64,000 bases of DNA from Porphyrobacter sp. Lineage in GTDB: Bacteria > Pseudomonadota > Alphaproteobacteria > Sphingomonadales > Sphingomonadaceae. The number at the start of each line of letters is the position of its first letter. Position 1 is the first letter of the stretch. The stretch is taken from the NCBI GenBank assembly GCA_017744315.1, contig JAGIBN010000001.1, forward strand, positions 248,001-312,000. Direction: 5' to 3'. Below are positions 33,478 through 40,734 of the stretch, in pieces. The notes under the pieces are model-generated. The model was not told the origin of the DNA. It did no database searches and saw only the letters and a program-made list of their open reading frames with translations. The position numbers and the translations under genes were made by a program.

Positions 33478-36390
<2,913 letters not shown>

Positions 36391-36500
36391 GGGATGTGAT
36401 TTCTTGGAGGCAGTAGCTAAATCGGCCGGAAACTAGATACTTGCAAGGGAAGGAAAATCGTTGTCCAAGAGTCGCCTAAGGGCGTTATTGGGGGGATTTG

Positions 36501-37355
36501 ATGGCTCGTCGTCACAAGATGGAAGTTGGCGGACTAAATGTTCGCGTCCATCCGCACTCAGAAGACATATATCGTGACTTGATTCATGATCTCTATAAGC
36601 TCCGTAGGATTGCCAAGATACATGGCGATCGGCATGGCTTAATTACTACGTTGGACCGAAGAAGTCGTGAGCCTGTAGTGGGTGGAATTATTACAACCTT
36701 TCTTGAAATAGATTCCGCAGGAGAATGGTTCAATACTGAGACGATGAAGGAGGCGTCAGATAACGAGATAGAGGCAATAGTCATACCAGATAATTTGAGG
36801 CCAAATGCTAAGTCATTTAGATTTCAATTTGATGTGGTTAGACATGAGCTTGTGTTTGAGCATTATTCGGAAGGCGACGTTCTAACTCATAATTCGGCAT
36901 TGAAGTTTTTTAAAAATCTAACAAATGTTAGATCTATAGGAAACAAGTTTGGGTTGGTGGATGTAAACATCATTCAATCAAGAGGAAGTGCTGAGAAAAT
37001 CTTTTCAATCCCTAGGATAACTGACTTGGAAATTCTTATCGAAAAGCCAAATGCAGATATTTGGGGTGAGGATTTTGAGGAGCAGGCCGAAGAGCATCTT
37101 GACGAAAAGAATGCTCGTTCGATGCGGGTTTCCTATAAATCGGAGGCTGGGCAGGGAATTAGGAGAGACGTCGAGTTGGAGGCGTTGATTAGGGCAAGTG
37201 TAAATAACGGTCGTTCTGTTGCTAAGGGATACGGACCAAATGGTCATTTGATCGTTAGCACTGATTCATATCCTAGAGTTGAGCAGGAGACCTACGAGCC
37301 CGATGAGGCCCCGTCTCAGGTGTTCGCGAGGCTTGCCCGGATATTTAGGCGGTAA
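36501..37355 (+). CDS. DUF4747-like protein of an AT-rich two-gene cassette
   Basis: The ATG at 36501 (GGGGGGATTTG upstream; the track's TTG one codon earlier is unlikely) gives 284 residues, starting MARRHKMEVGGLNVRVHPHSEDIYRDL. From memory this resembles proteins of the uncharacterised DUF4747 family; I could not verify it. The protein is soluble and highly charged, with an alpha/beta look, no signal peptide and an acidic late region (WGEDFEEQAEEHLDEKNAR). Base composition and codon use (many AAT, ATA, TTA, AGA) are clearly AT-richer than uvrA and all other neighbours, indicating recent transfer. The stop is 2 bases before the next start. Confidence 0.7.
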   Translation: MARRHKMEVGGLNVRVHPHSEDIYRDLIHDLYKLRRIAKIHGDRHGLITTLDRRSREPVVGGIITTFLEIDSAGEWFNTETMKEASDNEIEAIVIPDNLRPNAKSFRFQFDVVRHELVFEHYSEGDVLTHNSALKFFKNLTNVRSIGNKFGLVDVNIIQSRGSAEKIFSIPRITDLEILIEKPNADIWGEDFEEQAEEHLDEKNARSMRVSYKSEAGQGIRRDVELEALIRASVNNGRSVAKGYGPNGHLIVSTDSYPRVEQETYEPDEAPSQVFARLARIFRR

Positions 37356-37357
37356 TC

Positions 37358-38014
37358 GTGTATAGAGATACCATTAGGGCTTTTAGCCAATACTGGAAAG
37401 AGTATGGGGGTTTCCGGGATCTCATAAGGTCCCCCTTTGCACACTTTAGTTTTATTGTGACGGTTTTATACGCGGCGGGACTTTTGGAGATTGAGTGGCG
37501 AGAGGTTGTCCGGGACTCGCTACCGACGATCTTGGGTTTCAGTTTGGCGGCGTACACAATCACATTTACGCTTATGGGAAGTGCTCTTCATCGCGCGTTA
37601 ACAGTAGCCATCGATAAGAAAACTGGTCATAAGCTAATAAGAATTGTTAATGCGACATTTTTCCATGTGGTTGTATTTCAGGCCATCGCCTTGCTATATG
37701 CCCTTTTGACGAAGGGATCATTGGTTCCATCAATAGTCTCTTGGACTGTAAATGATGATCAAGTGGCGGCTTGGATTAATGTAAGGGTCTATTTTTGGGG
37801 CGACGTGATTGGCTGCTTTTTTGCCGTTTATGCGTTTTTCCTGCTTTTGTCGGTAGGGTTGGCGATGTTCAGGTTGGGACGGATCTCGCCTCCAGTCGTG
37901 GCCTCCAGCAGGGGCGTCCCCGAGCACTCGCAGGAATCAGAACCTCCAGTAGTCAGGACTTTGCGCTTCAAGTTTGTTGTGTGGCTTTCTAAACGCCTTC
38001 GGCTTTACGACTAG
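37358..38014 (+). CDS. Four-helix membrane protein, partner in the AT-rich cassette
   Basis: The GTG start lies 2 bases after the DUF4747-like stop, so the two are translationally linked. The 218 residues include four hydrophobic helices (HFSFIVTVLYAAGLLEI, LPTILGFSLAAYTITFTLMG, FFHVVVFQAIALLYALL, VIGCFFAVYAFFLLLSVGLAMF) and a basic amphipathic C-terminus (FKFVVWLSKRLRLYD). Composition matches its partner, not the host. No family is recognised. A soluble sensor plus membrane protein is the layout of many anti-phage effectors; that role is inference. Confidence 0.68.
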   Translation: MYRDTIRAFSQYWKEYGGFRDLIRSPFAHFSFIVTVLYAAGLLEIEWREVVRDSLPTILGFSLAAYTITFTLMGSALHRALTVAIDKKTGHKLIRIVNATFFHVVVFQAIALLYALLTKGSLVPSIVSWTVNDDQVAAWINVRVYFWGDVIGCFFAVYAFFLLLSVGLAMFRLGRISPPVVASSRGVPEHSQESEPPVVRTLRFKFVVWLSKRLRLYD

Positions 38015-38244
38015 CAAGTCGACCGATTCAATCGCTGAACACACTCCAGCTGATTGTCCTCTCTCACCGATGGTTGTGCATCTGTCGGCCGCGGATTCCA
38101 CCCCCTAACCTACATCAACACGAATCCCTTAGGCTCCCCTGCCAAACAGGCGTACACGCAATCCCATCGCTGACCCTGTCCAGGCCTGTCAGCGGCTGAG
38201 AGAAGCTTCGGCACTGCTCCCGCCTCGTGCAATGGAGCAAGACA

Positions 38245-38403
38245 ATGCCTAGTTGGCTCGCCCTCTCCCTGATTATCGTGTTGTTCTTCATTCCCACCAT
38301 CCTGGCGGCCGAGCGCCTCGCCCGGTTTGTTACGCGGCGGAACAAGCGGCGCGAGGTTACCGTGGAGACGGGCAAGGCCGACGGGCGGCCGTCCGGTTGG
38401 TAG
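38245..38403 (+). CDS. Tiny single-TM protein (52 aa), below the ORF-track cutoff
   Basis: ATG 38245 with GGAG seven bases upstream encodes MPSWLALSLIIVLFFIPTILAAE, a single membrane helix. A very basic stretch (RFVTRRNKRREVTV) and a short polar tail follow, ending at TAG 38403. The topology (hydrophobic N-terminus, positively charged cytosolic side) is sensible for a small membrane protein. GC content is host-like again, marking the right edge of the AT-rich island. The function is unknown. Confidence 0.5.
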   Translation: MPSWLALSLIIVLFFIPTILAAERLARFVTRRNKRREVTVETGKADGRPSGW

Positions 38404-38458: not shown

Positions 38459-39226
38459 CTATCCCACGACCGGCTGGAAGGTCCCGCCGTCGAGAGGTCC
38501 GTGGGTGGCATTGGGATCGGGCGCATCAAGGCGGCAATCAAGGAAGTAGTTCACGGGGAACTCCTGTATGCTGATGCCAAGCGGCCGCATGAAGTTCGTG
38601 CGGACTTTTGGATCGCCCGAGACGCCGCGAAAGCCGAGCGTGAAGACTGTCGGCGCGATGGTGTCGAAGTGCCAGAAGTCGGCGGCGATGAAATCATCCC
38701 GATCGAGCGCTCCGAGAATCCCCAGGATGGTGTCGCCCACCCCGAGCGCGTCCTTGATCGCTTCGGTGGCCTTGTCCCGCACGGCCTTCTTCATGACGTC
38801 GACGATCGCCTGCCGGTCCTCGTCGGTATCGGCCGTCACCAGTGGGCCGATCTTCAGGCGGAACTGCGCGTTTAACTCGTCGAGATAGGCTTGATAGCCC
38901 GCACGGATCGCGTCCGCTGGAATGTCGAAGTCAGCTTCGAGCAGCGCAACGACGAGGAACAAGTGCCTGATCGGGGTATCAAATTGAGCCACAAGGCGGT
39001 TGTTTCCATCAAGCGGCAACTGGGCGCTTTCATTGGCGCGCATTTCGTCCTTGATGTTGCGCCGCGCTTCGAATTCCGTCGCCACAGTCGGCGTTGAAGA
39101 GAACTGGCCCCCGTCAAGAATGCCGAGCCAAGGCCAGACGTAGGGTTCGCTATGGCTGGTGTTTTGCTGATCGCTCTCCTCGAAACAGACGAGGCGTTCG
39201 AGGGTGATGGTCGCTTGAATGGGCAT
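38459..39226 (-). CDS. Hypothetical protein (255 aa)
   Basis: I start at MPIQATITLERLVCFEESDQQ, with CAGGAGA upstream; the ORF-track N-terminus is antisense-like. The sequence opens with a beta-rich domain ('SEPYVWPWLGILD') and has a helical middle ('RQAIVDVMKKAVRDKATEAIKDALGVGDTILGILGALDRDDFIAADFWHFD'). It ends in a second beta-rich part 'YFLDCRLDAPDPNATHGPLDGGTF'. No signal peptide or membrane helix is seen. The family is not recognised; a C2-like or immunity-type fold is possible but unproven. Confidence 0.65.
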   Translation of the reverse strand: MPIQATITLERLVCFEESDQQNTSHSEPYVWPWLGILDGGQFSSTPTVATEFEARRNIKDEMRANESAQLPLDGNNRLVAQFDTPIRHLFLVVALLEADFDIPADAIRAGYQAYLDELNAQFRLKIGPLVTADTDEDRQAIVDVMKKAVRDKATEAIKDALGVGDTILGILGALDRDDFIAADFWHFDTIAPTVFTLGFRGVSGDPKVRTNFMRPLGISIQEFPVNYFLDCRLDAPDPNATHGPLDGGTFQPVVG

Positions 39227-39537
39227 GTCGTGTCTCCTGATCCGATGCCGATGGGACAGGTGACCGGTGAGGAGCGCACAGCACGAGGAAAGCGGATCGA
39301 TGCGCAGCACACTCTCGGCACTCGGCCTGTCATTTGCGCGATCCGGCACATGCTTTTGCACGGCGCCGATAGTATCCGTTTAGCGCGAGGCCCGGTCAAG
39401 GCAGCGAACGCCACGGAAGAGCAGCCGGTCTGACGCCTTGCACCGGTGGCCGAGTATATTTTTGAAAGAAAACACTTTCCTACAGCCCCCGCTATGCTCC
39501 ACTTGGTTTGGTTCATCGACTCGAAGCGAGGTGAACC
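39227..39537. other. Divergent intergenic region
   Basis: These 311 bases lie between two divergent genes, so both promoters should be here. The right end has an AT-rich stretch (TATATTTTTGAAAGAAAACAC) and the motif AACACTTTCCTAC, which recurs in reverse at 50055 and in part at 47684. No gene is supported. Confidence 0.5.
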
Positions 39538-40734
39538 ATGTCCCACTACACGCCCATCGACCGTTTCACGCTGCCGGGTGATATTCCGGATTCTGCGGGC
39601 TTCGACGCGCCCACCCCCGGCCCCTCCCGTGAGCGGGAGGGGAGTCGGTCGCGCTTCCAGTCCCCCTCCCGCTTGCGGGAGGGGTTAGGGGTGGGCCACG
39701 GGGTCGACTACGAAGACGATCCCCGCCATCTCTCGCACCCCGCCGGCCGGGGCTGGCAGCCGGTCAGCCGGCAGCGCTTGCCGGGCGAGCCGCCCGAGCC
39801 CTCGAGCGTCGACGCCTTTGCCGCGCTGCTCGACGAGGGGGAGAGCCCGCACGCGGTGTTCACGCGCGCCTTGCAGGTGCGGTTCCTCGATCGGCTGGCG
39901 ACTTGCGGCAACGTGCGCTCGGCCTGTGCGGCGGCGGGGGTCTCGCCGCACACCGCCTACAAGGCGCGGCGGCGCGACGGGGCGTTTGCGCGGTTGTGGG
40001 ATGCGGCGCTGCTGCTCGCGCGGCCGCATGCCGAGGCGGTGCTGGCGGCGCGGGCGCTCGACGGGGTCGAGGTGCCGATCCTCTATCGCGGCGAGGTGAT
40101 TGGCTATCGCCGGCACTATGACGGGCGCCTGCTGCTGGCGCATCTCGGGCGGCTCGACCGCGCGATTGAGGAGGCGGCGCCGGGGGCCGAGGAGGCGGCC
40201 GAGCGGTTCGAGGAGCTGCTGGCGCTGCACCTGGGGGTGGAGCCGGACGAGGCGTTGATCGAGGCGAGCGGGGAGGGGGAGGCGCTTCCCGGCACGCTCG
40301 ACCAGGTGGTCGACGAGGCGCGGGCGCGGGCCCTGGCCGAGATCGAGGCGGAGCAGGCCGAGGCCGCGCCTCCGCGCGAGCGGCTCACCGACGAGGAGTG
40401 GCGGGCGGCGGGTTGTCCCGACGAAGACGATGAGGATTACGAGGACGACTGGGAGGAGGAACCGCTCAGCGAGGAAGAGCAGGCGGCGCTGGCCGCTCAG
40501 CACGCCGCGATGGACCAGGCCGAGGACGGCGCGCGGGCGCTATGGGCAGCGTGGCAGGAAGCCGCGCTCGCCGCCGTGGACGCAGCGCTCGCCGATCCTC
40601 CCCAGGATGGGGAGGATCTAACTCCCCTCCCGCTTGCGGGAGGGGTTGGGGGAGGGCCTGTCGAGCCCGAGATCGACACCTCAGAACCGTGTCACCCCGT
40701 CACCCCCCTGGCCCGTCCCGCAGTCGCCGCTTGA
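39538..40734 (+). CDS. Terminase-small-subunit-like HTH protein with REP insertions in frame
   Basis: The 398-residue frame contains a clear HTH core 'FLDRLATCGNVRSACAAAGVSPHTAYKARRRDGAFARLWDAAL', like phage terminase small subunits but here a chromosomal singleton. A long Glu/Ala-rich helical and acidic C-terminal part follows (DEDDEDYEDDWEEEPLSEEE). GAGGTGA precedes the ATG. Palindromic repeats encode 'SPSRLREGLGVG' near residue 45 and 'LTPLPLAGGVGGG' near 370 without breaking the frame. No other phage genes are near. The function is unknown, and DNA binding is inferred. Confidence 0.72.
   Translation: MSHYTPIDRFTLPGDIPDSAGFDAPTPGPSREREGSRSRFQSPSRLREGLGVGHGVDYEDDPRHLSHPAGRGWQPVSRQRLPGEPPEPSSVDAFAALLDEGESPHAVFTRALQVRFLDRLATCGNVRSACAAAGVSPHTAYKARRRDGAFARLWDAALLLARPHAEAVLAARALDGVEVPILYRGEVIGYRRHYDGRLLLAHLGRLDRAIEEAAPGAEEAAERFEELLALHLGVEPDEALIEASGEGEALPGTLDQVVDEARARALAEIEAEQAEAAPPRERLTDEEWRAAGCPDEDDEDYEDDWEEEPLSEEEQAALAAQHAAMDQAEDGARALWAAWQEAALAAVDAALADPPQDGEDLTPLPLAGGVGGGPVEPEIDTSEPCHPVTPLARPAVAA
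39621..39684. repeat. Two CCCCTCCCG palindromes inside the HTH gene (5' end)
   Basis: CCCCTCCCG-TGAG-CGGGAGGGG (39621-39642) and CCCCTCCCGC-TT-GCGGGAGGGG (39663-39684) are perfect palindromes. The second is repeated exactly at 40624. They lie within the coding frame and look like REP-type insertions into a tolerated linker. Confidence 0.75.
40595..40645. repeat. Palindrome pair inside the HTH gene (3' end)
   Basis: ATCCTCCCC-AGGAT-GGGGAGGAT (40595-40617) belongs to the same family as the hairpins at 4711, 24471 and 58404. It is followed by CCCCTCCCGC-TT-GCGGGAGGGG (40624-40645), identical to 39663-39684. Both are translated. Confidence 0.75.

Follow-up and report, generated by a model that had tools for sequence, protein, structure and literature searches.

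RexAB infection sensing is a question that has stood for 70 years. Pairs of a cytosolic DUF4747-type protein and a four-transmembrane (four-TM) protein have been described from Sbash, CarolAnn, and Butters as RexAB-like prophage defence (PMC6426596, PMC6426606, PMC7542560). Both genes are required for Sbash 30/31 and CarolAnn 44/43 to abort infection. Toxicity of the Kita trigger depends on the presence of the CarolAnn pair, and depolarisation of the RexAB kind has been put forward as a model (PMC6426596, PMC6426606). Neither CarolAnn gp43 nor gp44 is toxic singly (PMC6426606). In Butters, gp30 alone protects and gp31 weakens that protection (PMC7542560). Analogous pairs have experimentally tested anti-phage activity (PMC6426596, PMC6426606, PMC12894663). 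In the P. putida pair the effector role falls to the membrane partner, which damages the membrane when the RexA-like partner is over-expressed (PMC12894663). In the actinophage papers, weak HHpred matches connect DUF4747 with RexA as well as with the proteins studied there (for Butters, probability 69%, E = 140; PMC7542560).

Here we analyse a cassette of two genes, A and B, directly behind uvrA in a sphingomonad genome. The initial annotation of this DNA knew of no described role for such a pair. That belief fails because a "DUF4747/CarolAnn prophage system", located downstream of CapKS, has already been named (PMC13373217), in addition to the actinophage pairs above. The pair at the uvrA locus is compact, chromosomal, and Gram-negative, with a cleanly linked partner, and offers a tractable test of the RexAB layout beyond lambda.

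Results

A low-GC insertion of two genes directly follows uvrA

Genes A and B are both intact and lie 2 bases apart between uvrA and the next genes, at the positions first annotated (Table 1). The AT-rich composition and foreign codon use ascribed to them were borne out: gene A has a GC content of 0.44 (GC3 0.42) and gene B of 0.48 (GC3 0.53), compared with 0.67 (GC3 0.92) for uvrA. Together they stand at 0.457 against a mean of 0.637 (sd 0.033) for the window, that is, the whole 64-kb stretch of DNA analysed, and they form its lowest-GC 1.5-kb stretch, the next lowest other stretch being at 0.576. The uvrA stop codon at 36390 is the left edge of the hotspot described below. Homology to a genome of the same genus (G005) breaks off at 36393 and restarts at 38121, and thus the inserted unit consists of genes A and B and their leader only. 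A prophage at the uvrA locus was set aside for the same reason. Of the span first annotated as a two-gene insertion (36391-38014), the part covering the genes stands, and the remainder, 36391-36500, is a non-coding leader in which a consensus search found no sigma-70 promoter and no terminator.

Table 1. Features of the cassette and its flanks, in window coordinates.
Feature	Position	Strand	Remarks
uvrA	33478..36390	+	core gene, left flank; orthologue in nearly all relatives examined
Leader, uvrA to gene A	36391..36500	+	110 bp, non-coding
Gene A, DUF4747 protein	36501..37355	+	ATG start, 284 aa, pI 6.0
Gene B, four-TM protein	37358..38014	+	GTG start, 218 aa, pI 9.8
Gene B TM1	37436..37492	+	residues 27-45, hydropathy
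Gene B TM2	37520..37576	+	residues 55-73; conserved LPxxLGF motif inside
Gene B TM3	37652..37708	+	residues 99-117; conserved TF.H and Q108 inside
Gene B TM4	37805..37861	+	residues 150-168
Right edge, sequence common to G005	38121..38289		76% identity

Two further ORFs lie to the right. One of 300 aa, just right of the cassette (38459-39361, minus strand), occurs only in this genome among those compared and has no Pfam or PADLOC match. The other, a GC-rich ORF of 398 aa just right of the hotspot (39538-40734, plus strand, GC 0.735), is present in about half of the relatives compared and has no Pfam match.

Gene A belongs to DUF4747 and gene B encodes a four-TM protein

Gene A matches PF15931 (DUF4747) with E = 3.5e-48 and 164.7 bits, exceeding the curated Pfam cut-off of 27 across the whole domain (profile positions 1-257 of 257), which places the resemblance first noted on firm ground; it also matches phrog_10040 (E = 2.1e-72). 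Seven residues (N13, Y24, G62, H115, N184, G237, and P258) are invariant across 10 diverse relatives, and we recognised no catalytic motif in the protein. Searches of Pfam and NCBIfam gave no antitoxin-type DNA-binding domain. For neither gene did any NCBIfam model score above its cut-off, nor did any PADLOC (2023) model match at E ≤ 1.

The fold of gene A was modelled with AlphaFold2 from a five-row alignment, giving a mean pLDDT of 56, with blocks of residues 11-160 at 55 to 81 and values under 50 over most of the C-terminal half. The best PDB match of this low-confidence model was RdgC (2owl, probability 0.91; 2owy, 0.89; E = 0.007-0.016), with a TM-score of 0.25. The sixth PDB match was CENP-N, which we take to be the counterpart of CHL4. 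Structural relatives reported for RexA are RdgC and the yeast IML3/CHL4 proteins (PMC11077077); RexA itself was absent among the best 50 PDB matches listed. Profile searches of PDB sequences with gene A or gene B returned nothing meaningful. As modelled, gene A is probably a DNA- or nucleoprotein-binding sensor of the RexA/RdgC type.

The initial reading of gene B as a small polytopic membrane protein agrees with its four hydrophobic segments and with a helical structure model (pLDDT 71), for which the PDB held no meaningful match. Constant features of its family are an N-terminal YWxxYGG..SPF, LPxxLGF in TM2, and TF.H..Q in TM3. The sole family match is phrog_20580 (E = 1.3e-12). Its only Pfam hit, a weak one to the formate/nitrite transporters, was sub-threshold (E = 0.096), and we set that identity aside for this reason.

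The two genes are linked across the phylum

The DUF4747 gene is rare and patchy, occurring in 1 of 61 close relatives, 2 of 351 genomes of the order, 2 of 385 of the class, and 7 of 399 of the phylum (this genome included each time). A separate search of the same 399 phylum genomes with the gene B family returned the identical 7 genomes, with B adjoining A in all of them, a coincidence expected by chance at about 3e-15 if genomes are taken as independent. Both families likewise fell in the same 3 of 72,556 plasmids. In every locus inspected gene B adjoins gene A, with spacings from an 11-bp overlap to a 38-bp gap, and the linkage is kept down to about 13-20% identity to the window proteins. 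The cassette is thus a DUF4747 + four-TM pair by its adjoining homologous partner and the conservation of their linkage, which is near-obligate across the phylum. The co-occurrence proposed as a check in the initial annotation was therefore found.

Relatives of the pair are carried by several kinds of element. Three pairs (L015, L018, and L019) are in Mu-like prophages, accompanied by Mu-type transposase, transposition, or terminase genes; two more lie directly 5' of endolysin or amidase genes on viral contigs L113 and L116, the only loci that scans of viral contigs with single proteins returned. Another (L016) is near a phage/satellite-type replication protein in a satellite-like element, and two are on small Acinetobacter plasmids, close to toxin-antitoxin genes. 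The L017 pair is inside a defence island with matches to PbeA/Orf5/HEC-03B/HmaB-type models. A phage GenBank collection, queried by tblastn with the two proteins and with two distant relatives of A, gave no match.

A defence hotspot lies directly behind uvrA

We compared the two sides of uvrA in one genome per genus of the bacterial family plus a few extra members, scoring a low-GC patch where GC within 5 kb fell at least 0.12 below that of uvrA. Such patches were present downstream in 34 of 56 genomes and upstream in 8 of 58 (Fisher p = 2e-7); outside the family the counts were 7 of 20 downstream and 4 of 20 upstream, and the contrast is not clear. The hotspot loci are window positions 36391-38120 and L043, L045-L047, L049-L052, and L057-L111. 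In the same-genus genome G005, DarT and DarG lie between the same flanks in place of the DUF4747 pair. Occupants identified individually elsewhere are TIR, caspase, and ThsB-like proteins (G002), NACHT (G007), NsnA/GmrSD_N with HEPN (G020), and KAP/PDC-S49 (G032), and further cargo across the set comprises OLD/AriA/GajA-like AAA proteins, a reverse transcriptase, a deaminase, Schlafen AlbA_2, Mrr, and DUF4062. Fifty cargo proteins match 279 PADLOC models, compared with 56 for 67 upstream control ORFs, in a comparison where ORFs were called mechanically, PADLOC models are redundant, and cargo was picked by low GC; the control matches came mostly from one methyltransferase group in two proteins. 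We conclude that genomes of this bacterial family have a defence hotspot behind uvrA, and the cassette proves to sit in a defence-enriched position of the kind that the initial annotation had suggested looking for. DUF4747/four-TM pairs are already known as prophage defence, whereas we found no description of the uvrA 3' hotspot in open-licence literature, within which it appears to be undescribed.

The pair itself occurs at the same uvrA site in a genome of another genus (G097) and in a Novosphingobium MAG. In the latter copy (L002:9980-10858) gene B is intact and gene A has an in-frame stop, which could be either decay or a MAG error.

Downstream of uvrA, 11 of 57 loci (among them L057, L061, L062, L065, L071, L074, L075, L092, and L112) hold diverged copies of the 3' end of that gene, compared with 0 to 5 of 57 for control blocks, which suggests that cargo may arrive with a piece of donor uvrA through homologous exchange. 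These copies often stand immediately before the cargo; the window locus has none. A role for the duplicated uvrA tail as a site-specific attachment site was rejected, since no integrase was noticed, the remnants are diverged, and none is present here.

The pair shares the layout of RexAB systems and not their sequence

In layout, the pair corresponds to RexAB, with a soluble protein next to a four-TM protein, a likeness of layout and TM count only. At the level of sequence, hhalign comparison of gene A (as the DUF4747 profile) with lambda RexA, CarolAnn gp44, and Butters gp30, and of gene B with RexB, gp43, and gp31, all counterparts being single sequences, found no similarity (probabilities 0.1-0.4%), and the pair is not assigned to the RexAB type by sequence homology. 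It resembles CarolAnn gp44/gp43 and Sbash gp30/gp31 in joining a cytosolic protein to an adjoining four-TM protein, in being phage-borne in the wider families, and in the DUF4747 label. That label, however, is a weak HHpred match for CarolAnn and Sbash, whereas gene A is a full-length Pfam DUF4747 protein; the CarolAnn/Sbash sensor is longer (370 aa); and the hhalign comparison, made with the CarolAnn sequences, found no similarity between that pair and this one. The CarolAnn genes are also co-transcribed with the repressor. The copy here lies in the chromosome, and we recognised no prophage around it.

Lambda RexA and RexB (279 and 144 aa, against 284 and 218 aa here) share the layout, with four TM segments in RexB as in gene B, and the RdgC and CENP-N resemblances of the gene A model would be kin of the type reported for RexA. 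They differ in sequence and in their linkage to cI/cro, which genes A and B lack. By its published description, P. putida RexABpp (PP_5643/PP_5644) is similar in layout, Gram-negative host, and predicted clamp-like sensor with a four-helix effector; it differs in being prophage-borne and HHpred-related to RexA (PMC12894663). The uvrA site in turn resembles E. coli defence islands (PMC10121019) and P. aeruginosa core defence hotspots (PMC10250203), which likewise have fixed core-gene flanks and swappable defence cargo, and differs in belonging to a sphingomonad family and mostly holding one small module per genome.

Discussion

We read genes A and B as a horizontally acquired RexAB-like anti-phage module, placed in the family's defence hotspot directly behind uvrA, in which A would be the sensor and B the membrane effector of abortive infection (probability about 0.7). 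Published pairs of the same layout, together with the RdgC-like fold match, make gene A probably a RexA/RdgC-type sensor and gene B probably a RexB-type membrane effector. We postulate that gene A is a non-enzymatic cytosolic sensor of RdgC/RexA-like fold that, probably as a dimer, binds DNA or phage nucleoprotein complexes. Infection would trigger gene A, which would activate gene B, and gene B would then permeabilise or depolarise the inner membrane, so that the infection is aborted. These roles, including DNA binding and channel activity, we infer by analogy with lambda RexAB, CarolAnn 44/43, Sbash 30/31, and P. putida RexAB, and the relation of the pair to RexAB is best read as one of working alike rather than of proven membership. 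The sensor-and-effector defence layout first proposed for this cassette is, as an inference, well supported by linkage and site.

The Butters result means that the direction of control could differ in A and B. Gene A may itself be the antiviral agent, with the membrane protein anchoring and restraining it, as in the model proposed for Butters, where gp30 blocks phage alone and gp31 attenuates; A is larger than B, binding-type interference needs no catalytic motif, and all the linkage and context evidence fits equally. This arrangement is nevertheless improbable, given that both genes are required in the Sbash, CarolAnn, and P. putida pairs, that the growth-suppressing effector in P. putida is the membrane protein, and that Butters gp30 has no detectable relation to gene A. 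Quite unlikely is a toxin-antitoxin addiction pair in which B would act as the small membrane toxin and A as the antitoxin to it, with phage defence incidental. Tight coupling of two genes, one of them for a small membrane protein, and carriage on small plasmids and mobile elements would suit such a pair, but CarolAnn gp43 and gp44 are each non-toxic alone (PMC6426606), the Pfam and NCBIfam searches gave no antitoxin-type DNA-binding domain, and both the gene order, with the large conserved soluble gene first, and the prophage-lysis and defence contexts suit defence better. That the genes are functionless leftovers of the regulatory or exclusion genes of a decayed prophage is very unlikely: relatives are prophage-borne and the Novosphingobium gene A carries a stop, yet here both genes are intact, the insertion amounts to precisely these two genes, and the uvrA site repeatedly receives defence modules. 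A role outside defence, for instance in stress signalling or transport, with the genes placed in the hotspot by chance, would draw on the sub-threshold transporter match of gene B and is hardly credible against a mobile, patchy distribution (1 of 61 relatives), defence-rich contexts, and published analogues.

Beyond the RexAB-like module proposed for this locus, a wider and more tentative view, on which we would not yet bet, is that DUF4747 + four-TM pairs make up a large RexAB-like family of abortive-infection systems, mostly from Pseudomonadota and not tied to prophage repressors. Its RdgC-like sensor would watch phage recombination or replication intermediates, and the pair would rotate through a dedicated, previously undescribed uvrA 3' defence hotspot in this sphingomonad family.

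In the same hotspot, G018 carries another soluble (310 aa) and four-TM (208 aa) pair (L097:4398-6878). In sequence the 310-aa protein does not resemble the DUF4747 profile, and the pair is possibly a second RexAB-like type.

Many genomes of the family carry a different small defence module behind uvrA, and several occupants are without defence annotation; the site thus supplies a ready candidate list. Four such occupants gave no PADLOC match where scanned singly and either no Pfam match or a generic one, and we regard them as candidate new defence genes: a 670-aa AAA-like protein (L046:1047-3056), a DUF5677 protein (L047:790-2046), a pair of 547 and 209 aa (L052:727-2959), and a 334-aa protein (L107:9395-10396).
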